From Hymenobacter sp. (GTDB lineage: Bacteria > Bacteroidota > Bacteroidia > Cytophagales > Hymenobacteraceae), in the NCBI GenBank assembly GCA_025354605.1, contig JANXMN010000043.1, positions 1 to 33,961 on the forward strand: 33,961 nt of DNA, in the 5' to 3' direction. A program made the translations under genes and the position numbers. The notes below the pieces were generated by a model that did not search any database, was not told the origin of the DNA, and was given only the letters and a program-made list of their open reading frames with translations. Positions 1 through 33,748 of the stretch are shown in pieces. The first letter of the stretch is position 1; every line of letters begins with the position of its first letter.

Positions 1-970
1 TTTCGGCGTCGATGCCCCCGATTTCGCAGAGGCGCTGCATGGCGGGCAGGGGCTCGAATAGGTTATCGAGCACCGCGCCGAGGCCGTTTTTGAGCACCCG
101 CTGGAAGTTGTCGGCCACGCCGCCGCCGGTGATGTGGGCGATGCCGTGCAACGGCAGGCCGGCATCGAGCAGGGCCGTGATGCCGGGGGAGTAGATGAGC
201 GAAGGCGCGAGCATAGCCTCGCCCCAAGTCGTGGGCGCTTCGCTTAATGAAGAATGAGGAATGAGGAATGAGGAATTGGAGGAGGGTAATTCTTCATTCC
301 TCATTCCTAATTCCTCATTAAGCGCAGCGTCGTGCCAGTTCTCGCCAAACAGCCGTTGCAGGGTTTTGCGGGCCAGCGAGTAGCCGTTGGAGCGGAACGA
401 GGGCGAGCGCAGGGCCACCACGGCGTGGCCGGCCCGAGCGGTTTTGCCGCTCAGGGGCTGGGCCAGGCTGGGGTGCAGCACCCCAATGGCCGTGGAGCAC
501 CAGTTGAAGTTCATCTTGGCACCGGGCCAGCCGCCGATGCGGTTGCCGAGCTCCGCGATTTCGCCGCCCGTGATGGCAATTTTCGCGAAGTTGGCAGCAT
601 CGTGCAGGCCGCGCATCAGCTGGTCCACCACATCGTAGTCGAGGTGGTTCACGTCGATGATGTTGGAGAGGTTGGTGGGCACGAAGCCGGCGGCAATGAG
701 GTCGTCGGCCGTCATGGCGATGAGGTCGTAGCCGAGGGTATCGTACTGGTTGAGGCGCTCGGCCACTTCAATCTTGGTCCCAATGCCGTCGGAGCTGATG
801 CCGAGGCGCTCGGTGCCGAAGCGGATTTCGTTGGAGAAGCCGCCGTCGAGGTCCTGGGCGGGTTCGCCGGGCTGGCCGGCGCGGTTGGCGAAGGTCTTTT
901 TGGCCCAGTGGTAGGCGTTGCGCGAGGCAGCATTGCCTTCTTCGATGGAGTAGCCGGCGGGGTTAGTCAT
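1..970 (-). CDS. purM: Phosphoribosylformylglycinamidine cyclo-ligase (AIR synthetase), C-terminus cut by window edge
   Basis: This enzyme makes aminoimidazole ribonucleotide from FGAM with ATP, the fifth step of purine synthesis in the cytoplasm. About 323 codons are visible, starting at ATG 970-968 and running off the left edge without a stop. The family motifs SSDGIGTK, the TADDL segment, TGGEIAELG and SNGYSLAR are present in order, and the visible end (MQRLCEIGGIDAE) matches the MQxxG region near the family C-terminus. The start codon lies inside the heptamer inverted repeat that separates it from purF. Residues about 217-243 are encoded by a second heptamer element (243-321) and read NEELGMRNEEL followed by NSSFLIPHSSL; no known PurM feature accounts for them. 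The frame stays open through the element, so the gene looks intact. It is the last visible gene of the minus-strand cluster, just downstream of purF. Confidence 0.93.
   Translation of the reverse strand, partial: MTNPAGYSIEEGNAASRNAYHWAKKTFANRAGQPGEPAQDLDGGFSNEIRFGTERLGISSDGIGTKIEVAERLNQYDTLGYDLIAMTADDLIAAGFVPTNLSNIIDVNHLDYDVVDQLMRGLHDAANFAKIAITGGEIAELGNRIGGWPGAKMNFNWCSTAIGVLHPSLAQPLSGKTARAGHAVVALRSPSFRSNGYSLARKTLQRLFGENWHDAALNEELGMRNEELPSSNSSFLIPHSSLSEAPTTWGEAMLAPSLIYSPGITALLDAGLPLHGIAHITGGGVADNFQRVLKNGLGAVLDNLFEPLPAMQRLCEIGGIDAE
243..321. repeat. Heptamer inverted repeat, type A, inside purM
   Basis: The left arm (244-277) and right arm (287-321) are inverted copies built from degenerate heptamers of the form GAGGAAT or GAAGAAT, separated by a 9-base loop. 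The arms are AT-rich compared with the surrounding coding sequence. Read in the purM frame, one arm gives NEELGMRNEEL and the other NSSFLIPHSSL. In the GA-rich sense arm, units 2 and 5 begin with T instead of G, which turns what would be TGA into TTA. The partner arm does not carry the matching change. Confidence 0.9.
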
Positions 971-1126
971 TTAACATTTATCAATTAACATTTAACAATC
1001 GTCCTTTTAGCACTCAGCAGTTATCTACACAGCCTTCCTTCGCTTACTCGCCGCGAACACGCCACGCAGGCGGTTAGGGCGGGACGTCGGACGGGTGTTA
1101 AATGATAAATGTTAAATGTTAAATGA
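968..1126. repeat. Heptamer inverted repeat, type B, between purF and purM
   Basis: Arms 968-999 and 1096-1126 are inverted copies made of heptamers such as TTAAATG, TTAATTG and ATAAATG. A GC-richer spacer of about 96 bases with no recognisable gene separates them. One arm contains the purM start codon as part of a TTAAATG unit. The other arm begins 3 bases after the purF stop codon at 1130-1132. The same type occurs at 26319-26441 and 27113-27220. Confidence 0.85.
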
Positions 1127-1129
1127 CCC

Positions 1130-2640: not shown

Positions 2641-2739
2641 TAATTATGAGTTATGAATTATGAGTTATGAGTTGGCAAATCGGGAGGCTGAGCCGGGCAT
2701 AAGCCCAACTCATAACTCATAATTCATAACTCATAATTA
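2641..2739. repeat. Perfect 33-bp heptamer inverted repeat, type C, between purN and purF
   Basis: The arm at 2641-2673 and the arm at 2707-2739 are exact reverse complements over 33 bases, with a 33-base GC-richer loop (2674-2706). Each arm is a run of heptamers of the form GAGTTAT or GAATTAT. The inner arm overlaps the 3' end of purN and encodes its last residues (MSYEL) and its stop codon. The outer arm ends 8 bases upstream of the purF start codon, so the structure would lie in the purF leader. Confidence 0.95.
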
Positions 2740-6530: not shown

Positions 6531-7508
6531 CTAGTGTTGGTTGGCGAGTTGCACTGCTGGAACCGTAGAAGTATTTTTCTGGGCGATGTACGTCACGATG
6601 TTCTTGAAGATTTGTAGCCCCTCCCCTTCCTCGGAAGCATTGGGATTCTGGCGCCGACGGCGCGCCCAGTCCGGGTGGTTATAGGCCGAGAGAAACGCCT
6701 CGGGGTGCGGCATCAGCCCAAACACCTGCCCGGTGGCATCAGTCAGGCCGGCGCAGTTCAGGGCCGCACCGTTGGGGTTGAAGGGGTACACGTCGGTGGC
6801 ATCGCCGTCGGAATCGGCGTAGCTCAGGCAATTCAGGGCACCGGCTTCGAGGGCGGCGCGGGTGGCCGCGTCCGGAACCACCAAACGGCCTTCGCCGTGG
6901 CGCACGGGCACCTCCAGCGTATTAATGCCGGTGAGGAAAGGCGTGCGGCTGGCCGGGTTCACGCGCAGCTTCACCCACCGGTCTTCGTAGCGGCCGCTGG
7001 CGTTGTGGGTCAGGGTGACTTCGGGCGTCACGGCGCCGCCGAGGTTGGGCAGCAGCCCCAGCTTCACCAGCACCTGGAAGCCGTTGCAGATGCCCAGCAC
7101 GAACTTGCCGTTGGCGATGAACTGCTTGATGTCGTCGAGCAGGGTGCGGCCGTCGGCGCTGGTCTGACGGTAGCGCAACTTGTTGGCCAGCACCACGCCC
7201 GAGCCCAGGTCGTCGCCAAAGGAAAAGCCGCCGGGGAAGTTCAGAATGTCGAAATCGTGGATGCTCACCTGCCCGTGCAGCACCTGGTTGAGGTGGACGA
7301 TGGTCGCCTCGGCCCCGGCCAGCCGGTAAGCCGCCGCGAATTCTTCCTCGCAGTTGATGCCAAAACCGGTGAGAATCAGCGCGCGCACCGGCCGGTTTCC
7401 AACGACCAGTTCGGCTTGTGCCGCCGATTGAACTTTATATGCCGCCGCGTTGAGGTTTTGTACCGGAACAGCAGGGCTTTGGACTGAAAACTTTTCGTCT
7501 TGTGCCAT
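6531..7508 (-). CDS. purQ: FGAM synthase glutaminase subunit (PurQ-like)
   Basis: This subunit supplies ammonia from glutamine to PurL for FGAM synthesis. It is a class I glutamine amidotransferase: LILTGFGINCEEEFAAAY, NFPGGFSFGDDLGSG, the nucleophile Cys in VLGICNGFQVL, and the His-Glu pair in LMPHPEAFLSAYNHPDW. At 325 residues it is much longer than the classic small PurQ of about 230. The extra length includes an N-terminal extension of about 40 residues, so it resembles the detached C-terminal domain of a large PurL. Start ATG 7508-7506 shares one base with the purL stop (TAATG), a typical arrangement for translational coupling of subunits. Confidence 0.92.
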   Translation of the reverse strand: MAQDEKFSVQSPAVPVQNLNAAAYKVQSAAQAELVVGNRPVRALILTGFGINCEEEFAAAYRLAGAEATIVHLNQVLHGQVSIHDFDILNFPGGFSFGDDLGSGVVLANKLRYRQTSADGRTLLDDIKQFIANGKFVLGICNGFQVLVKLGLLPNLGGAVTPEVTLTHNASGRYEDRWVKLRVNPASRTPFLTGINTLEVPVRHGEGRLVVPDAATRAALEAGALNCLSYADSDGDATDVYPFNPNGAALNCAGLTDATGQVFGLMPHPEAFLSAYNHPDWARRRRQNPNASEEGEGLQIFKNIVTYIAQKNTSTVPAVQLANQH

Positions 7509-10500
7509 TAACTCAGGTCTGAAGCGTTGGATGTTAAGGCCGGGGCCACACCCAACAGTTGATTTATTGGACCGTTGGTCCAAGCGGCGCGCAGGGCGGC
7601 GGTGTTGGCTGCCAGCACCGGCTGGCCCGCGTGGTGCACGGTCAGCTGGCCGTCCAGCGTCACGCGGCCGAGGCGGGTGGCGCGGTTGCCGAGCAGCTGC
7701 TCGAAGGCTACCACGTCTTCCGGCGCGACCGTAGCCACGAAGCGGGAGTGTGACTCTGAGAACAACTGCACCGTCAGCGGCAGGCCGGCGGCGGGCAATT
7801 CAATGTCAGCCCCGTAGCCGTAGCCGAAAGTGGCTTCGGCCAGCGCCACGGCCAGGCCGCCATCGCTCAGGTCGTGGCAGGATTGGATGAGGCCCCGGTC
7901 GTTGGCCTGGCCCACCAGCATGTACAGGGCCTTAGCGCGGGCGAAATCAACTTTCGGCACGTTGGCCCCCAGCTCGCCGTGCAAGGCGTAGAACTCGGAG
8001 CCGCCCAGCTCATCGTAGGTTTCGCCGAGCAGGTATACCACGTCGTCGGCCTGCTTGAAGTCGGAAGTCACGGCGCGGCGCACGTCTTCCATCTTGGCCG
8101 TCATCGAGTAGAGCACGGTGGGCGGCACCGAAATCTTCACGCCGTCGGCCTTGAAATCGTTTTTCATCGAATCCTTGCCGCTGGTGAGCGGAATGCAGTA
8201 GGCGGCCGTGGCATCGCGCAGGGCCTCGCACATGCGCACCAGCTTGGCCAGCTTCTGCTTGCCATCGGGGTTGCCAATGGGGTCGTACACCGAATCGGGC
8301 ACGCAGAAATTGTCGTTCACCGACCAGAAAATCCCGTCGCCGTGTCTCAGGTTCGGGAGCTTCCCTCCTACTGCAATAATCTGCCGCACGGCTTCGTCAA
8401 ACGAGCCGGCCGACATGTGGTACGCGTCCAAATCGCCGTAGCGCGGGATAATGCCGTTGCTCACGGCTACGCCTTCCCAGCTCTCGAAATTGAAGCGCAC
8501 TACGGCCGCGTCCTGCGGGGCCTGGCCCGTCGCGCCCATCAGCGGCTTCACAATCGTGCGGCCCTTCACCTCGTGGTCGTATTGGCGAATGACCGACTCG
8601 CGCGAGCAGATGTTGAGCGAACACAGCAGTTGCGTCAGCGTCTCCGTGTAGTTTAATGAGGAATGAGGCGTGAGGAATGAAGAATTGACAGCGGCCCTGG
8701 CTAATTCCTCATTCTTCATTCTTAATTCTTCATTCATTCCCGTCCACTCCGCTTCCAGGATTTTGCGCGGCACGCCTTCGTGCAAAAACTCCATGTCCAG
8801 CCGGGCCACCGGCGCACCATCGAAGCGCACATCCAGGAAACCATCGGCAGTGAAGAAGCCAATATCGGTCAGCTCCACTTCCATTTCCTGGCCCAGCGCC
8901 GTGATTTCGGCCATTTTGCCCGGCTCCACCACCAGCGTAAATCGCTCCTGCGACTCGCTCACGAAAATCTCCCAAGGGCGCAGGCCGGGGTATTTGAGCG
9001 GCACGCGCGCCAGCTCCACTACCGCGCCGCCCGAAATGCCGGCCAGCTCACCCACCGACGACGAGAGGCCGCCCGCGCCATTGTCGGTGCTGCATTTCAG
9101 CAGGCCACGCCGGGCGGCCAGCAGGAGGAAATCCATGGCCAGCTTCTGGGTGATGGGCGAGCCGATTTGCACGGCCGTGGCAGGGGCGGTTTCATCAAGC
9201 TCAATCGAAGAAAACGTCGCCCCGTGGATGCCGTCCTTGCCCACCCGGCCGCCGGCCATGATGATGCGGTCGCCAGCATCAATCTTCTTCTCCCACGAGT
9301 CCAACCCGGCAAACTGCATGGGCATCACTGCGCCGGTGCCGCAGTACACCAGCGGCTTGCCGGCGTACCGGTCGTCGAACACAATCGCCCCGTTCACGGT
9401 CGGCACGCCCGACTTGTTGCCACCGTCCTCGATGCCCTTGCGCACGCCTTCCAGAATGCGGCGCGGGTGCAGCTGCCCGGTCAGCAGCGGCCCGTTGTAT
9501 TCTGGGTTGCCAAAGCACAGCACGTTGGTATTGAACAGCAGCCGCGCCCCTCCGATGCCGGTAGCCAGCGGGTCACGGTTGTTGCCCAGAATGCCCGTAA
9601 TGGCCCCGCCGTACGGGTCGATGGCCGACGGCGAGTTGTGCGTCTCCACCTTCCACACAAACAGCGAATCGGCGTTGATGCGCACGGCCCCGGCGTTGTC
9701 GGAAAATACCTTTACCAGCCAGTCGTTGCCATTGGCCCGCAGCTGGCGGTCTACTTCAGAAGTGGCGTCTTTGATGTAGGTTTTGAACAGCGAGTCAATC
9801 TGCTTCTCCTCGCCCGTTTCGGTGTCGCGGTAGTTAATAAGGGCCGCAAACTCCTTGTGCTTGCAGTGCTCCGACCACGTCTGGGCAATGATTTCCAGCT
9901 CGCAATCCGTCGGGTCGGCCGGTAAGCCTGCTGCCTGACGCTCGGCCTGCGTGGCGGGGGCCGCGAAGTAGTCGCGCAGGGCCCGCATCTCCTCCAAGTT
10001 CAGCGCGTAGATGTTTTTCTTCGAAAGCTGCACCAGCTCCGCGTCGCTGCGACCGGTCAGCGAAATCACCTCCGTAATGGCTTCGGCCCCACCGCCGGGG
10101 CGCGGCGTGTAGTCGCGGATGCCGTCGGCCACGCGGCCCACTTCCAACCAGTTGATAAGCTTGTTACCCAGCAGCTCCTCGGCCAGGCGGCGCAGGTTGG
10201 CTTCGGGCAGGTTGTGTTCGAGCAGGTAGAGCTTCTTGCTGAAAATGTGCTGGGTGTGCACGTCGAGCGGCGCGTTCAGCAGGTCAGCCAGGGCGTTCTG
10301 AGCCGAGGTGCCCTCGTCGTCGGTCACGCCGGGGCGGCGCGCTACCAGGATGTAAGTGGCGAAGCCGGGCGCGGCGGTCAGCTCGTTCAGGCGCACGTCG
10401 TGCAGCACCGGGTCGGCGAGGCAGCGGGTGGCGAAATCATGCAGCTGGGGTTCGGTAAGCGGGTAGCGCACCGTGTAAAGGGCCACACTGCGCACCCGGC

Positions 10501-10606
10501 CGGTGGTCAGGCCGAGGTGACGGGCGGCGGCTTCGGCCACCCGCTGGCCGTCGCCGTCGTGCTGGCTGGGTTTCAGCGTGAGCTGGATGGTATGGGTGTC
10601 AGTCAT
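7508..10606 (-). CDS. purL: FGAM synthase synthetase subunit, large type without glutaminase domain
   Basis: PurL converts FGAR, ATP and ammonia to FGAM. The protein has 1032 residues. Residues 1 to about 80 are PurS-like (IQLTLKPSQHDGDGQRV), followed by a linker with SEHCKHKEF and the synthetase core, with KVETHNSPSAIDPYGGAI near 320-335 and MPFAG-like ATP-binding parts beyond. The glutaminase domain is missing here and is encoded by the overlapping purQ. I chose ATG 10606-10604 (MTDTHTIQ) because upstream in-frame codons come only from the type D heptamer repeat. Residues about 624-652 are encoded by a type A heptamer element (8653-8734), giving NEELRMKNEEL and NSSFLTPHSSL, nearly the same peptide as in PurM. 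The reading frame is otherwise intact. Confidence 0.94.
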   Translation of the reverse strand: MTDTHTIQLTLKPSQHDGDGQRVAEAAARHLGLTTGRVRSVALYTVRYPLTEPQLHDFATRCLADPVLHDVRLNELTAAPGFATYILVARRPGVTDDEGTSAQNALADLLNAPLDVHTQHIFSKKLYLLEHNLPEANLRRLAEELLGNKLINWLEVGRVADGIRDYTPRPGGGAEAITEVISLTGRSDAELVQLSKKNIYALNLEEMRALRDYFAAPATQAERQAAGLPADPTDCELEIIAQTWSEHCKHKEFAALINYRDTETGEEKQIDSLFKTYIKDATSEVDRQLRANGNDWLVKVFSDNAGAVRINADSLFVWKVETHNSPSAIDPYGGAITGILGNNRDPLATGIGGARLLFNTNVLCFGNPEYNGPLLTGQLHPRRILEGVRKGIEDGGNKSGVPTVNGAIVFDDRYAGKPLVYCGTGAVMPMQFAGLDSWEKKIDAGDRIIMAGGRVGKDGIHGATFSSIELDETAPATAVQIGSPITQKLAMDFLLLAARRGLLKCSTDNGAGGLSSSVGELAGISGGAVVELARVPLKYPGLRPWEIFVSESQERFTLVVEPGKMAEITALGQEMEVELTDIGFFTADGFLDVRFDGAPVARLDMEFLHEGVPRKILEAEWTGMNEELRMKNEELARAAVNSSFLTPHSSLNYTETLTQLLCSLNICSRESVIRQYDHEVKGRTIVKPLMGATGQAPQDAAVVRFNFESWEGVAVSNGIIPRYGDLDAYHMSAGSFDEAVRQIIAVGGKLPNLRHGDGIFWSVNDNFCVPDSVYDPIGNPDGKQKLAKLVRMCEALRDATAAYCIPLTSGKDSMKNDFKADGVKISVPPTVLYSMTAKMEDVRRAVTSDFKQADDVVYLLGETYDELGGSEFYALHGELGANVPKVDFARAKALYMLVGQANDRGLIQSCHDLSDGGLAVALAEATFGYGYGADIELPAAGLPLTVQLFSESHSRFVATVAPEDVVAFEQLLGNRATRLGRVTLDGQLTVHHAGQPVLAANTAALRAAWTNGPINQLLGVAPALTSNASDLS
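8653..8734. repeat. Heptamer inverted repeat, type A, inside purL
   Basis: Arms 8653-8686 and 8702-8734 are inverted, heptamer-built copies (GAAGAAT or GAGGAAT units) around a GC-rich loop of about 15 bases. Read in the purL frame they give NEELRMKNEEL, ARAAV, then NSSFLTPHSSL. As in the purM copy, units 2 and 5 of the GA-rich sense arm start with T, converting potential TGA codons to TTA, while the partner arm keeps the G-type units. Confidence 0.9.
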
Positions 10607-10689
10607 TGGTGCTTGGTTGTTGGTGCTTAGTGCTTGGCAACTAGAGCTTAGCATTATCACCAAGCACCAACAACCAAGCACCAAGCACC
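10606..10689. repeat. Heptamer inverted repeat, type D, between pyrE and purL
   Basis: The left arm (about 10607-10638) is built of heptamers GGTGCTT, GGTTGTT and AGTGCTT. The right arm (10659-10689) is the inverted equivalent (ACCAAGC, ACCAACA units). The spacer is about 20 bases. One end touches the purL start codon and the other lies 4 bases from the pyrE stop, so the element fills the whole intergenic gap. It is GC-richer than types A-C but has the same 4-5 unit arm architecture. Confidence 0.88.
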
Positions 10690-25213: not shown

Positions 25214-26428
25214 ATGCCGAGTTATTTAGGTGCCATCGGCACTGCCAACCCCGTCCACCGCATTGCGCAGTCGCAGATTGCGGACTTTATGGCGCGGGCG
25301 CTGGCTTTTGATGAAAACGGCACGCGCAAGCTGCGCGCCCTGTACCGGGTGTCGGGCATTGAGCACCGCTATTCGGTGTTGCCCGACTACGGCCGGGCGG
25401 TGGGCGAATACACGTTTTTTCCCAATACGGCCACGCTGGAGCCGTTTCCGAGCGTGGGGCAGCGCATGGCGGCCTACCGCCGCGAAGCCCTATCCCTGGC
25501 CCTGGAAGCCGTGCGCGACTCGCTGCGGCAGCTGCCCGACTTCGACCTGACCTCGGTGACGCACTTGGTGACGGTGAGCTGCACGGGCATGTACGCGCCG
25601 GGCCTCGACATTGAGTTGGTGCAGGCGCTGGGGCTGCGGCCCGACGTGCGCCGCACCTGCGTGAACTTCATGGGCTGCTACGCGGCCGTGAATGCTCTGA
25701 AGCTGGCCGACGCCTTCTGCCGGGCCGATGCCGAGGCCCGCGTGCTGATTGTGAGCGTGGAGCTGTGCACGCTGCACTTCCAGAAAAGCCCCGAGGAAGA
25801 CCACCTGGTGAGCAACGCGCTGTTTGGCGACGGGGCCGCCGCCTGCTTGGTGCAGGGCCGGCCCCTGCCCGCCGGCACGCCCAGCCTCGAAATGCAGGGC
25901 TTCCACTGCGGCCTGGAGCCGGATGGCCACGACGACATGGCCTGGCACATCAACGACTTCGGCTTTGAGATGACGCTGAGCAGCTACGTGCCCAAGCTCA
26001 TTCAGCGCGGCATTGGCAAGCTGACCGAGGGGCTGCTGGCCAGCCTGCCGGTGCAGTTGGGCGACATCCGGCATTTCGCCATTCATCCGGGAGGGCGCAA
26101 GATTCTGGAAACCATCGAAACCGAGCTGGGCCTGACCCGCGACGACAACCGCCACGCCTACCGCGTGCTGCGCGACTACGGTAATATGTCGTCGGCCACG
26201 GTGCTGTTTGTGCTGCGCGAGGTACTGGCCGCCGCCACCCCAGCCGACGACGGGGCGCCGGTGCTAAGCTTCGCTTTTGGCCCGGGCCTGACGATGGAAG
26301 CCATGCTGCTGGGCATTTCATTTAACAATTATCAATTAACATTCAACGAGCAGGAGAAAGCAGAAAAGAATAAGCCGGAGGAGTTGACCATTTCTGCGCC
26401 GGCACTCGAACTGTTAAATGTTAATTGA
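25214..26428 (+). CDS. Type III polyketide synthase (chalcone/stilbene synthase family)
   Basis: This 404-residue iterative synthase condenses malonyl units onto an acyl-CoA starter. The catalytic triad is visible: Cys155 in CVNFMGCYAAVNALKLA, His291 in HFAIHPGGRKIL and Asn324 in DYGNMSSATVLFVL. The family C-terminal motif SFAFGPGLTMEAMLL is complete at residue 366. The remaining 37 or so residues (from ISFNNYQ to ELLNVN) and the stop codon are encoded by a type B heptamer inverted repeat and its spacer, and resemble no part of the family. By neighbours (FAD oxidoreductase upstream, methyltransferase overlapping the same element downstream) the product is probably an alkylresorcinol or alkylpyrone lipid. 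No acyl ligase is adjacent. Confidence 0.93.
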   Translation: MPSYLGAIGTANPVHRIAQSQIADFMARALAFDENGTRKLRALYRVSGIEHRYSVLPDYGRAVGEYTFFPNTATLEPFPSVGQRMAAYRREALSLALEAVRDSLRQLPDFDLTSVTHLVTVSCTGMYAPGLDIELVQALGLRPDVRRTCVNFMGCYAAVNALKLADAFCRADAEARVLIVSVELCTLHFQKSPEEDHLVSNALFGDGAAACLVQGRPLPAGTPSLEMQGFHCGLEPDGHDDMAWHINDFGFEMTLSSYVPKLIQRGIGKLTEGLLASLPVQLGDIRHFAIHPGGRKILETIETELGLTRDDNRHAYRVLRDYGNMSSATVLFVLREVLAAATPADDGAPVLSFAFGPGLTMEAMLLGISFNNYQLTFNEQEKAEKNKPEELTISAPALELLNVN

Positions 26429-26441
26429 TAAATGTTAACTG
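26319..26441. repeat. Heptamer inverted repeat, type B, at the type III PKS / methyltransferase junction
   Basis: Arms 26319-26347 and 26413-26441 are inverted copies of heptamers TTAAATG, TTAATTG, ATAAATG and TTAACTG, around a 65-base spacer. The left arm and spacer encode the unusual C-terminal tail of the PKS. The right arm supplies the PKS stop codon (TGA, 26426-26428) and the ATG of the methyltransferase (26432-26434). Confidence 0.9.
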
Positions 26442-27130
26442 AAAGAGCGACTGGTCCCGAGCTGATGGACGACCTGACGCTGGCCACCGACGCCCTGCGC
26501 CAGAACCTCGACGAGCTCGAAACCATCAATGCGTGGCTGGGCGGCTACCAGCCGGTGCTGAATGCCCTGCGCCGACTGCGGCCCCGCTTCCCGGCCGGGC
26601 GGCCTCTGCGCGTGGCCGACCTGGGCAGCGGCGGCGGCGACACCCTGCGCCACGTAGCCCGCTGGGCCCGTAACAGCAATGAGGCGGTGGAACTGACGGG
26701 CATCGACGCCAACGCCTTTATGCTGGAATACGCGGCCGCCAAAAGCCGCGACTTTCCTGAAATCAGCTACCGGCAGTTCGATATTTTTTCCAGGGAATTC
26801 CAGACCGAACCCTTCGATGTGCTCACGTGCAGCTTATTCTGCCACCATTTCACCGACGACGAGCTGGTGATACTATTGCGGCAGTGGCAGCAGCAGGCCG
26901 GGCTGGCGGTCGTCATCAACGACCTGCACCGGCACCCGCTGGCCTACTACAGCATCAAGTGGCTGACGCGGCTGCTGGGCGGCTCTTACCTGGTGCAGCA
27001 TGATGCGCCGCTGTCGGTAGCCCGCGCCTTTCGGCGCGCCGACTGGGAGCGGCTACTGGCCCGGGCGGACATTAAGCGGTACGAACTGCGCTGGTGCTGG
27101 GCCTTTCGCTGGCAATTAATTATCAATTAA
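26432..27130 (+). CDS. SAM-dependent methyltransferase, class I
   Basis: The protein has 232 residues. Motif I is RVADLGSGGGDTLRHVARW (about 62-80), with the acidic motif II residue in ELTGIDANAFMLEYA and motif IV in FDVLTCSLFCHHFTD. This is a Methyltransf_25/UbiE-like pattern. It probably O- or C-methylates the product of the adjacent type III PKS, as SrsB does in Streptomyces (inference by analogy). The ATG lies within the type B repeat 3 bases after the PKS stop; a second start, MDDLTLATDAL at 26465, is possible and would fit the family equally well. The last residues (QLIIN) and stop codon come from the next type B repeat. Confidence 0.9.
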   Translation: MLTERATGPELMDDLTLATDALRQNLDELETINAWLGGYQPVLNALRRLRPRFPAGRPLRVADLGSGGGDTLRHVARWARNSNEAVELTGIDANAFMLEYAAAKSRDFPEISYRQFDIFSREFQTEPFDVLTCSLFCHHFTDDELVILLRQWQQQAGLAVVINDLHRHPLAYYSIKWLTRLLGGSYLVQHDAPLSVARAFRRADWERLLARADIKRYELRWCWAFRWQLIIN

Positions 27131-27220
27131 CATTTATCAGTTAACATTTAACAGCTGTTCAAACAGCGTTGGCTGAGTGTGTTGAACGTCTGTTAAATGT
27201 TAATTGATAATTGTTAACTG
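27113..27220. repeat. Heptamer inverted repeat, type B, between convergent methyltransferase and deacetylase genes
   Basis: Left arm 27113-27153 and right arm 27190-27220 are inverted heptamer runs with a spacer of about 36 bases. The methyltransferase stop TAA (27128-27130) lies in the left arm and the deacetylase stop TAA (27216-27214) lies in the right arm. No other terminator is present between these convergent genes, so the hairpin may serve that role. Confidence 0.9.
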
Positions 27221-31123: not shown

Positions 31124-33748
31124 ATGCAACAGCAAACCCCCGGCGTCTACATCAACGAGATAAACGCCTTTCCCAACTCGGTGGTGGAAGTGGCTACGGC
31201 CGTTCCCGTCTTCATTGGCTACACGGCCAAGGCCAACTACAACGGCGAGGACCTCGCCAACAAGCCCCGGCGGGTGACTTCGCTGAAGGAATTCGAAACC
31301 TATTTCGGCCAGGGCGCGGTGCCGGTGTTCGATTTGCAGGAGCGGGCCGGTACCACCGCCGACCAGAAGGCCGCCCAGGCCCTGCTGGCCGTGCAGCCGC
31401 TGGCGCTGCAAATCCACGACGTGACCGTGTACGGGCCGGGACCGGGCGCGACGGCCATGAAAAACTACTCGCTGGTGCCCGACGACGGCAGCGTTATCTA
31501 CTACCTCTACAACAGCGTGCGGCTGTTTTACCAGAACGGCGGGGCCACCTGCTACATCGTGTCGGTTGGGCAGTATGATGGCGGCGATGGCAGCGACGCC
31601 TCAACGGAAAGCATGTCGTCGGACGGCGACCAGGCAACGGTGAAAAACGCCCTCGGTAACGTGGCCGATACCACGGCCAACGCCCCGGCCGGCAAGCCCA
31701 CGAAAGACCAGTTCATTCAGGCCATCGACTCGCTGATTTACGAGCAGGAGCCCACCATGCTGCTCTGCCCCGATGCCCTGTGCCTGAGCGAGCCCGACTA
31801 TTACACCGTGGCCCAGAAGATGCTGCAGCACTGCAACGAAACCCAGAGCCGGGTGGCGGTGCTCGACGTGTACAAGGGAGCCGTGACCAACCCTATGGAC
31901 CTGAACGGCGACGACACGCCAGTGAGTCGCTTCCGCGAAGGCGTAACCAACAACTACCTGAAATACGGGGTGAGCTACTTCCCGTGGGTGCACACCACGG
32001 TGGTAGGCGAAACCGAAACCACGTTTCAGAACATGAGCAAGAACATGGTGGCCACCGTGAACGCGGCCGCCACCAAAGCCCTGCTCACGGCCCAGACCGA
32101 TGCGCTGGCCAAAATGAACAGCCCCGAGCTGTCGGCTGCCCAGCAGACGCTGCGCAGCGCCGTGGCCTACGCCAACCTGGTGCAGTCGGCTCGCCGCATG
32201 CACGGCCCCTCGCAGGACGACGTGCAGCGCGAAGACGCCGCCCGCATTGCCGCGGCCCCCACCGCGGCCGGCGCCGCTACCACCGCGGCCGCAACCGCCA
32301 CCACCGATGCCACGGCCGCCGCTACGGCGGCCACTGATGCGGCCGCCGATGCCACGAAGCTGGGCGCGGCCATCACCGCGGCAACAACGGCCGTCGCTTC
32401 CGCCGATGCCGCCGCCAAGGCCGTGAGTGCCATCGGGGGCAATGCGATGGCCAAAGCGGCCGAGGCCAGCGCGGCCGTGCTCGCGGCCACCGCCGCCCTG
32501 AACACCGCGACGGCCGCCGCCACTGCCGCCGCCGTCGCGACCCTCTCCGACGACGAGAAGGCGGCCCGGGCGAAGGAAGCCACCGATGCAGCCACGGCTA
32601 CCGCCACCGCGGCTACCACCGCCGCCGCCGCCGCCACGACTGCCGCCGCCGCCGCTACCACCGACGCCAAAGCCGCCGGAGCCGCCAAAGCTGCCGCAGA
32701 TGCGCAAGCGGCCGCCACTACGGCGCTGGCCTCGGTGGGCAGTGCCCAAAGCGAAGCGGATGCCACGAAAAAAGCGGCCCTGGTGACCACTGCAATGACC
32801 GATGCCACCGCAGCCGCCACCGCCGCTACCGCCGCCGCCGACTCGGCTACGACAGCCGCTAAGAATGGCAGCGGCTCGGCCACGGTATTTGCGCTGGCCA
32901 AAGCCGCCACGGATGCCGCCGCCAAGGCCACGGCCGCCCTGACCGTCGATGCCAAAGCCGATGACAAGGCCAAAGCCACGGCCGCCCAAACCGCCGCCCA
33001 AACGGCCAAGGACGCCGCCGACAAAGCCGCCAACGCCGTAGCCGCCCTAAGCGGCCAGCCCCTGACGCCCGCCGAAAAGCAAACCGAGGTAATGCGCCTG
33101 CACAGCGCCCTGCTGGCATCCAACCTCGACTATGCGCGCGTCATCGACAACATTACCCGCTACCGCAACACCCTGCCCGTGGCCCCGGCCATGGCCGGCG
33201 TGTACACGGCCGTGGACACCAACCGCGGCGTGTGGAAAGCGCCCGCCAACGTGGGCCTGAGCGGCGTGACGGCCCCCACCGTGAACCTGAGCGACAACGA
33301 CCAGGCCCGCCTGAACGTGGACGCCGTGTCGGGCAAGTCGGTGAATGCCATCCGGCCCTTCCCGGGGCAGGGCGTGCTGGTGTGGGGTGCCCGCACCCTC
33401 GACGGCAACAGCAACGACTGGCGCTTTGTGAACGTGCGCCGCACCATGATTATGCTGGAGCAGTCCATCAAGCTGGCAGCCCGCGCCTACGTGTTCGAGC
33501 CCAACGACGCCAACACCTGGGTGACGGTGCAGAGCATGATTAGCAACTTCCTCTTCAACCTCTGGAAGCAGGGCGCGCTGGCCGGCTCGAAGCCCGACGA
33601 CGCCTACAGCGTGGCCGTGGGCCTGGGCACCACCATGACGGCCCAGGATATTCTGGACGGCTACATGAACGTGTTCGTGAAGGTGGCCATCTCGCGGCCG
33701 GCCGAATTCATCGTCCTCAGCTTCCAGCAGCAGATGCAGAAGTCCTAA
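31124..33748 (+). CDS. Contractile tail sheath protein with a large Ala/Thr-rich insertion
   Basis: The ends are standard phage-like/eCIS sheath. The N-terminus has TPGVYINEINAFPNSVVEV and VPVFIGYT, with SVRLFYQNGGATCYIVSVG at about 131-149. The C-terminus has GVWKAPANVGLSGV, NAIRPFPGQGVLVWGARTLDG, WRFVNVRRTMIMLEQSIK and FIVLSFQQQMQKS. The sheath would surround the tube and contract to drive it out. Length is 874 residues against roughly 450-550 in common relatives. The excess is residues about 371-647, a run of Ala, Thr, Asp and Lys with no aromatic residue except one Phe. The flanks of the insertion (SAAQQTLRSAVAYANLV and EVMRLHSALLASNLDYARVI) look like helices of the sheath fold. The frame is open throughout, so this is not a frameshift. 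Confidence 0.92.
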   Translation: MQQQTPGVYINEINAFPNSVVEVATAVPVFIGYTAKANYNGEDLANKPRRVTSLKEFETYFGQGAVPVFDLQERAGTTADQKAAQALLAVQPLALQIHDVTVYGPGPGATAMKNYSLVPDDGSVIYYLYNSVRLFYQNGGATCYIVSVGQYDGGDGSDASTESMSSDGDQATVKNALGNVADTTANAPAGKPTKDQFIQAIDSLIYEQEPTMLLCPDALCLSEPDYYTVAQKMLQHCNETQSRVAVLDVYKGAVTNPMDLNGDDTPVSRFREGVTNNYLKYGVSYFPWVHTTVVGETETTFQNMSKNMVATVNAAATKALLTAQTDALAKMNSPELSAAQQTLRSAVAYANLVQSARRMHGPSQDDVQREDAARIAAAPTAAGAATTAAATATTDATAAATAATDAAADATKLGAAITAATTAVASADAAAKAVSAIGGNAMAKAAEASAAVLAATAALNTATAAATAAAVATLSDDEKAARAKEATDAATATATAATTAAAAATTAAAAATTDAKAAGAAKAAADAQAAATTALASVGSAQSEADATKKAALVTTAMTDATAAATAATAAADSATTAAKNGSGSATVFALAKAATDAAAKATAALTVDAKADDKAKATAAQTAAQTAKDAADKAANAVAALSGQPLTPAEKQTEVMRLHSALLASNLDYARVIDNITRYRNTLPVAPAMAGVYTAVDTNRGVWKAPANVGLSGVTAPTVNLSDNDQARLNVDAVSGKSVNAIRPFPGQGVLVWGARTLDGNSNDWRFVNVRRTMIMLEQSIKLAARAYVFEPNDANTWVTVQSMISNFLFNLWKQGALAGSKPDDAYSVAVGLGTTMTAQDILDGYMNVFVKVAISRPAEFIVLSFQQQMQKS
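32234..33064 (+). repeat. Low-complexity Ala/Thr-rich coding insertion in the sheath gene
   Basis: About 277 codons are dominated by GCC/GCT/GCG (Ala) and ACC/ACG (Thr) with spaced Asp, Lys and Glu. Units of the type TAAAAATT and DAAAKA recur irregularly, and no exact DNA repeat unit is conserved for long. The product is predicted to be mostly long helix or coiled coil. Because the codons vary, this is old and maintained rather than a fresh slippage expansion (inference). Confidence 0.85.

Follow-up and report, generated by a model that had tools for sequence, protein, structure and literature searches.

The purL gene of a Hymenobacter sp. draft genome (assembly GCA_025354605.1) carries, within its reading frame, a palindrome assembled from seven-nucleotide units, which raises the question of how such a sequence comes to lie inside a core enzyme and what keeps it readable. 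Here, we analyse this element in a 33,961-nt stretch of DNA (contig JANXMN010000043.1; hereafter the window), together with related copies in the same genome and corresponding loci in relatives (G and L labels denote genomes and loci). At a probability of roughly 80%, judged from sequence comparison, the PurL element represents a dispersed palindromic repeat, one copy of which is translated within a length-tolerant linker, its frame kept by purifying selection.

Structure of the PurL element

The purL coding sequence lies on the minus strand, from its start codon at 10606 to the last base of its stop at 7508, and is open across 1,032 amino acids. Residues 625–651 derive from an in-frame palindrome of AATGARG heptads, which we denote type A, placed between two AIRS-like halves of the protein. 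The sense arm (window 8702–8734, minus strand) reads AATGAAG AATTAAG AATGAAG AATGAGG AATTA on the coding strand and encodes NEELRMKNEEL (residues 625–635). The loop (8687–8701, minus strand) encodes ARAAV (residues 636–640), and the second arm (8654–8686, minus strand), composed of reverse-complement heptads and an imperfect reverse complement of the first, encodes NSSFLTPHSSL (residues 641–651). The element thus lies where the original prediction had placed it, its boundaries (residues 624–652) being correct to within one residue. In the protein, EAEW is followed by TGMNEELRMKNEELARAAVNSSFLTPHSSL and then NYTETL, and close relatives have TKPAAAEPEIPAATDYTETL or similar in place of the insert. 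An AlphaFold model of PurL was set aside (mean pLDDT 55.7), and Rfam gave no matches above the gathering score within the window.

A second in-frame type A copy (236..329, minus strand; LNEELGMRNEELPSSNSSFLIPHSSLS) lies inside purM, which is cut by the window edge (window 2–970, minus strand), and codes for LNEELGMRNEEL PSS NSSFLIPHSSL. The PurL copy is the weaker palindrome of the two, with an RNA folding z score of −2.8 against −12.5 for the PurM copy, and the best ungapped arm score of its linker was equalled by 1 of 200 shuffles. The element is nevertheless far beyond chance, because its sequence recurs both in this genome and in the genus.

Both genes are on the minus strand, with purF and purN (named by eye from translations) between them, and the window holds further heptad palindromes, none assigned to a strand. 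A TTAACAT-type palindrome is located at the purM start (966..1127), a TTATGAG-type one at the purN–purF junction (2641..2739) and a TTGGTGC-type one touching the purL start codon (10606..10684). Two more of the TTAACAT type, at 26316..26444 between the genes for a type III polyketide synthase and a methyltransferase and at 27127..27217 after the methyltransferase gene, flank the latter. Heptads of non-type-A sequence are likewise multi-copy in this genome, with about 40 places for the TTAACAT type and about 22 for the TTGGTGC type, both hand counts of the match list. At the far end of the window (31124–33748), a tail-sheath protein has a Pfam Phage_sheath_1C domain at amino acids 763–868, preceded by a long Ala/Thr/Lys-rich low-complexity stretch; because a Pvc16_N gene lies upstream, the region looks like a contractile injection system locus.

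Type A copies and their host genes

The 106-nt PurL element has 106 matching pieces in its own genome, a 5.5-Mb draft that is fragmented (601 contigs, 90.3% complete, 5.75% contamination). Among the fetched loci, excluding the C133 and C46 places and places without two arms, we read 36 two-armed type A copies, of which L074 and L079, with nearly identical flanks, may represent a single locus present on two contigs. Thirteen are intragenic, a call made from the flanks alone: these were judged by open frames and codon-position GC on a single strand, and a stop within the element did not disqualify a copy. A further candidate, L088, was dropped from the initial 14 as it sits between convergent genes. 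All 13 are of 3n length, and 12 are stop-free, the exception being L020. The intragenic copies are shorter than the others (median 77 versus 85, p = 0.02), and a length of 2 mod 3 is found for 9 of the 13 against 9 of the remaining 23.

The hosts comprise PurL, PurM, PurH, a family-9 glycosyltransferase (GT9), an AddB-like nuclease, NAD synthase (NadE), D-Ala-D-Ala ligase (Ddl), a YfhO-like membrane protein, IspG/GcpE, an alpha/beta hydrolase, a MurF–alanine racemase fusion (MurF–Alr), a LytTR response regulator and the host of L020. Family matches flank the element on both sides or span it in PurL, PurM, PurH, GT9, the AddB-like nuclease, Ddl, IspG, MurF–Alr and the LytTR regulator; the best match for NadE and YfhO is on one side only, and that for the hydrolase is below Pfam's cut-off. 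At L020 (G000:C17), the type A copy that interrupts the gene has a stop codon within its loop.

The original prediction had seen it as remarkable that two enzymes of one pathway share the element in the same phase. With 13 of 36 copies intragenic and hosts including PurH, Ddl, IspG and MurF–Alr, the coincidence of pathway loses its force; the shared phase of PurL and PurM proves to be the common case but not a rule, as L011 and L086 use another register. These hosts also bear on the idea that the peptide was recruited for a protein function, such as contacts in a PurL–PurM–PurH assembly. Although three purine enzymes of this genome carry the element, as does PurH of G065 and G096, it is also found in Ddl, IspG, MurF–Alr, the LytTR regulator and others, is absent from most relatives read, and gives way in the same PurL linker to palindrome families that encode different peptides (see below), and we regard recruitment as very improbable.

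Beyond this genome, type A matches occur in 38 of 120 genomes of the genus (E ≤ 1 × 10⁻⁶) and, family-wide, in 39 of 200, both counts including this genome; the three outside the genus are weak. In PurH, the element is present in this genome, G065 and G096 and absent from the other 28 of 31 loci viewed, G009 having a different, longer loop. The PurM loop contains other in-frame heptads in 3 of the 27 named loci read (H. terrenus, H. ruricola and H. elongatus), the two arms of the H. elongatus insert being unlike each other by eye.

Stop-codon avoidance in intragenic copies

The AATGARG heptad contains TGA. Across the 13 intragenic copies of this genome, none of the 14 non-terminal units that fall in frame keeps the G of this triplet, T standing in its place, against all 39 out-of-frame units (p = 4 × 10⁻¹³; two of the 39, in L004, extend beyond the arm). 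In the copies that use the other register, L011 and L086, T is found in unit 3 and in units 1 and 4, respectively, exactly those that are in frame. Counted by arm, non-terminal T or C is present in 12 of 13 sense arms and in 0 of 13 antisense arms (p = 2.7 × 10⁻⁶), the lone sense arm without it being that of L090, the first half of which is outside the scored run. Since both arms belong to one insert, the antisense arm serves as an internal control, and the difference speaks, from sequence alone, for translation and purifying selection. In the other 23 copies of this genome, one arm too short for scoring aside, T or C is present at these units in 5 of 45 arms (p = 8 × 10⁻⁸ against the sense arms).

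A stop-avoiding T had been ascribed to two units of the PurL sense arm, an argument that depended on its being lacking in copies outside genes. For unit 2 the argument is borne out, AATT being found there in none of the 45 arms not classed as intragenic, with AACTGAG in L087 as the nearest case. For unit 5, on the loop side, it fails: AATT is found in all 13 antisense arms and all but one of the 13 sense arms and, because it is also present in 41 of 45 non-intragenic arms, this T is uninformative and reflects the consensus rather than stop avoidance.

In copies from other genomes, G is kept in 79 of 86 out-of-frame units but in only 2 of 32 in-frame units, both of which read as TGG codons. These copies were fetched largely by protein match, which biases them toward open ones, and the counts omit L218, the sole copy not in frame among 43 candidates. 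Non-terminal T or C is present in 28 of 29 sense arms, 10 of 29 antisense arms and 27 of 68 remaining arms, which still include coding copies missed by the filter (for example, L094 and L106, in long open reading frames). Judged from sequence, it is very probable that type A repeats are translated and that they shape real proteins.

The T-bearing copies may form a mobile subfamily of their own. The intragenic loops resemble one another by eye, but the copies read from this genome include none outside genes that bears T. A simple copy-paste subfamily predicts a T-bearing non-genic donor, so that its absence among these copies counts against such a process.

Palindrome families in the PurL linker

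Among the 80 named loci, the PurL linker is readable in 72, where it measures 81 nt in 62, 84 nt in 1 and 162–201 nt in 9. All nine long linkers are in frame and palindromic, none of 200 shuffles scoring as well, and they belong to other palindrome families (CCCCTCTCC-type, CCCCTCCCCAAAAGGG-type and GTAGAGACGC-type). Beyond the named loci, heptad inserts are found in PurL of this genome, G068 and G096. On the sequences compared here, the PurL linker is a recurrent slot for palindromes of unrelated families. The long insert in G082 PurL, only weakly palindromic, counts against such inserts always being palindromes. At a second PurL position (residues about 937–940), in-frame Pro/Gly-rich inserts with the look of GC-rich palindromes are found in G005, G023 and G035 (L063, L064 and L065).

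In a PurL tree with the linker masked, this genome groups by G025, G072 and G073, and G068 by G090, with G096 elsewhere, so that the three heptad carriers lie in three branches with neighbours that do not have the element. The junctions in G096 differ from those in this genome. This genome and G068 share the same junction, but their similarity next to it does not exceed that found elsewhere, and the shared tract extends no further. As the junction is common to genomes that are not sisters on the PurL tree, local interspecies exchange may outweigh new insertion.

The shared junction also bears on whether the element is an assembly artefact, contamination or part of a pseudogene. The fragmented, partly contaminated assembly (601 contigs, 5.75%) might suggest as much, as might the PurL of G034 (L052), where a GC-rich palindrome of out-of-frame length leaves two open frames of 678 and 425 codons, possibly a broken gene, a nested insert or a sequencing error. 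However, the same PurL junction recurs in G068, a single-contig genome, and the PurL reading frame studied here is open over its full 1,032 residues, making an artefact barely credible.

Palindrome turnover at other sites

In the 80 named loci (1.75 Mb), we counted 249 inverted repeats, against 3 in one Markov resampling, and among those with periodic arms, the period is 7 in 21 of 22, a few of them weakly (L140, L143 and the second L137 row). At the purN–purF junction, a palindrome lies within 170 nt in 32 of the 71 cases read, and the other 39 score none. By reading, 12 are heptads of varied sequence (13 by script, which sorted L145 as a heptad, GC-rich by eye), 19 are of the GTCATG...GAGC type and 1 is GC-rich. 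The arms here are more alike within an element (0.906, n = 11) than between species (0.720, 55 pairs), a comparison that is only suggestive, since arms were chosen for likeness, which favours the within-element value, and two species with arms under 20 nt were excluded.

One intergenic slot is palindromic in all 14 genomes read, each with 0 of 200 shuffles as good (of 16 genomes, a flank is missing in G045 and G074). It contains at least five kinds of palindrome: AATGARG (this genome, G072 and G115), GAGTTAA (G073 and G020), GAGTAAT (G009), TGAATGG (G046 and G039) and GTCATCCTGAGC (six genomes). The sister genomes G072 and G073, 97.9% identical across 342 kb of aligned pieces, have wholly different heptad palindromes at this slot (L301 versus L302) between flanks that are 99–100% identical. 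Most palindromes in the compared stretch are shared. Of 94 in the G072 stretch, 90 are comparable, and 85 of these are the same in G073, seven of them heptads; three were marked by script as another palindrome, comprising the one true swap at the intergenic slot, one partly changed relative and one unchanged palindrome joined by a further one; one is diverged, and one, a non-heptad, faces an empty site. The comparison starting from G073 yields one more locus at which the two genomes have unrelated palindromes; its flanks are 91.5 and 94.8% identical. A swap candidate at stretch position 231364 was rejected, since the G072 sequence there is not palindromic (171 of 200 shuffles scored at least as well). 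In about 400 kb of the two genomes, covering 8 comparable heptad palindromes from G072 and 9 from G073, no empty site was seen to have gained a heptad. These counts indicate that palindrome turnover is slow and that, for heptads, replacement is seen and clean gain is not.

Such interchangeability might be expected if the palindromes were selected as mRNA hairpins, serving as terminators or stabilisers at gene ends and slowing the ribosome at domain linkers for sequential folding, in which case the sequence would be free and only the hairpin would matter. The consistently palindromic intergenic slot, with its at least five sequences, fits this proposal, as do the strong RNA folding of three of the four window elements tested (z −8.4, −12.5 and −12.8) and the position of the PurL insert between the AIRS-like halves. 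However, plain 81-nt PurL linkers (62 of 72) and purN–purF junctions that contain no palindrome (39 of 71) indicate that a hairpin is dispensable there, the PurL copy folds modestly (z −2.8) and the period of 7 is left unexplained; we consider hairpin selection unlikely.

A different proposal is that unrelated palindromes replace one another as whole cassettes at fixed sites, either where genes meet or in the linkers that join domains of essential enzymes. This would involve a process acting on the palindromes themselves, such as cutting of the hairpin followed by repair from a different palindrome, or recombination over very short tracts. We put it forward tentatively, as a possibility with the odds against it, because the intergenic slot is occupied in 14 of 14 genomes by at least five sequences and was swapped between G072 and G073, with one further swap in about 400 kb; because heptads and no fewer than three further palindrome types are known from the PurL linker; and because this genome and G068 have the same PurL insert across branches without a longer shared tract. 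If true, slot exchange would swap protein linkers between species and leave the flanking gene untouched.

Proposed origin and maintenance

In the reading that we prefer, of a dispersed repeat translated in a tolerant linker, two arms of 4–5 AATGARG heptads mirrored about a short loop would account for about 27 added or replacing PurL residues. Insertions would occur at many places but persist in essential genes only if the protein tolerates a loop, the insert is of 3n length and no stop closes the frame; purifying selection would then maintain the open frame. Template switching from one arm to the other as the DNA is replicated probably preserves the likeness of the arms, a process described for inverted repeats (PMC8604942). 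For the 7-nt period, a proposal of contact with the polymerase is cited in PMC4679880.

Neither a clean empty site nor a target duplication was found for these elements: the PurL copy replaces about 40 nt of linker and the PurM copy about 30 nt. CACGAC is seen by eye on either side of the PurM element, but it is uninterpretable as a duplication because target sequence has been lost, and no common duplication is apparent by eye in the list of flanks.

These junctions are relevant to a possible kinship with REP/RAYT elements or MITEs, moved by a transposase acting in trans. Like these, type A is palindromic, dispersed and without a gene of its own, and intragenic REPs are described in PMC3733652. 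Inverted arms are present, with junctions that replace target sequence and no clean empty site. However, among 197 outer 20-nt flanks, GTAG is found in 18 and CGTC in 11, against 6.0% and 5.3% of random 20-mers from the same loci, so that neither tag is enriched. The distribution of PF01797 (Y1 transposase), the one family searched, does not track that of type A: it is found in 75 of 120 genomes, with none in the type A carriers G039 and G046, and the type-A-rich G099 is not among the listed positives. A RAYT/Y1 transposase was accordingly rejected as the mover, and we think a REP or MITE relationship quite unlikely.

Comparison with known systems

The original prediction had likened the PurL and PurM copies in concept to the palindromic elements of Rickettsia (RPEs), and the exonised, in-frame, stop-avoiding nature of type A upholds this likeness. 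RPEs are described as palindromes that occupy metabolic genes in frame, typically in unstructured parts of the protein, with several families per genome (PMC10969869, PMC3733652 and PMC2996958). RPEs and the coding palindromes of Wolbachia share with type A the dispersal of palindromes in frame among unrelated genes, seen here in 13 intragenic copies, 12 of them stop-free. Type A differs in being built of tandem heptads, with arms and loop together spanning about 75–100 bp versus about 150 bp for RPEs, in having a heptad sequence that varies between elements and in occurring in the non-rickettsial Hymenobacter; the likeness drawn here is one of concept. RPE-4 and RPE-6 have been equated with CGTC-tagged repeats (PMC3733652), and CGTC is not enriched at type A ends.

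The TAACTGA heptamer repeats of Beggiatoaceae, Cyanobacteria and Bacteroidetes (PMC4679880) have the same period of 7, lie near gene starts and stops and are sometimes intragenic, one set being in a purC gene of Flexibacter litoralis. They are nearly all direct repeats of one heptamer and, in the main species, mostly upstream of start codons. Type A, in contrast, has inverted paired arms, several heptads and in-frame stop avoidance, and its AATGARG units place it outside the TAACTGA class. REP palindromes, with GTAG/CGTC tags, are also short, numerous and mostly intergenic, with some intragenic copies (PMC3733652), whereas type A ends lack tag enrichment and its occurrence does not follow that of PF01797; by eye, the GTAGAGACGC palindromes of other PurL linkers look like members of the REP class. 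The mitochondrial coding palindromes of Nematomorpha (PMC6649704) are likewise translated inverted repeats, and yeast genes (PMC8604942) show arm homogenisation by template switching. Such cases lie in conserved protein sequence or alter existing repeats, whereas the Hymenobacter palindrome is an added insert.

We found no literature on such elements in Hymenobacter among the matches listed, which were open-licence papers. This genus has many cultured species, and because one PurL linker has been occupied repeatedly by unrelated palindromes, laboratory strains allow a direct test of how selfish or mutational DNA lengthens and replaces protein linkers. In-frame palindromes have so far come mainly from Rickettsia and a few other genomes, and to these Hymenobacter adds palindromes built of heptads, located in core enzymes.
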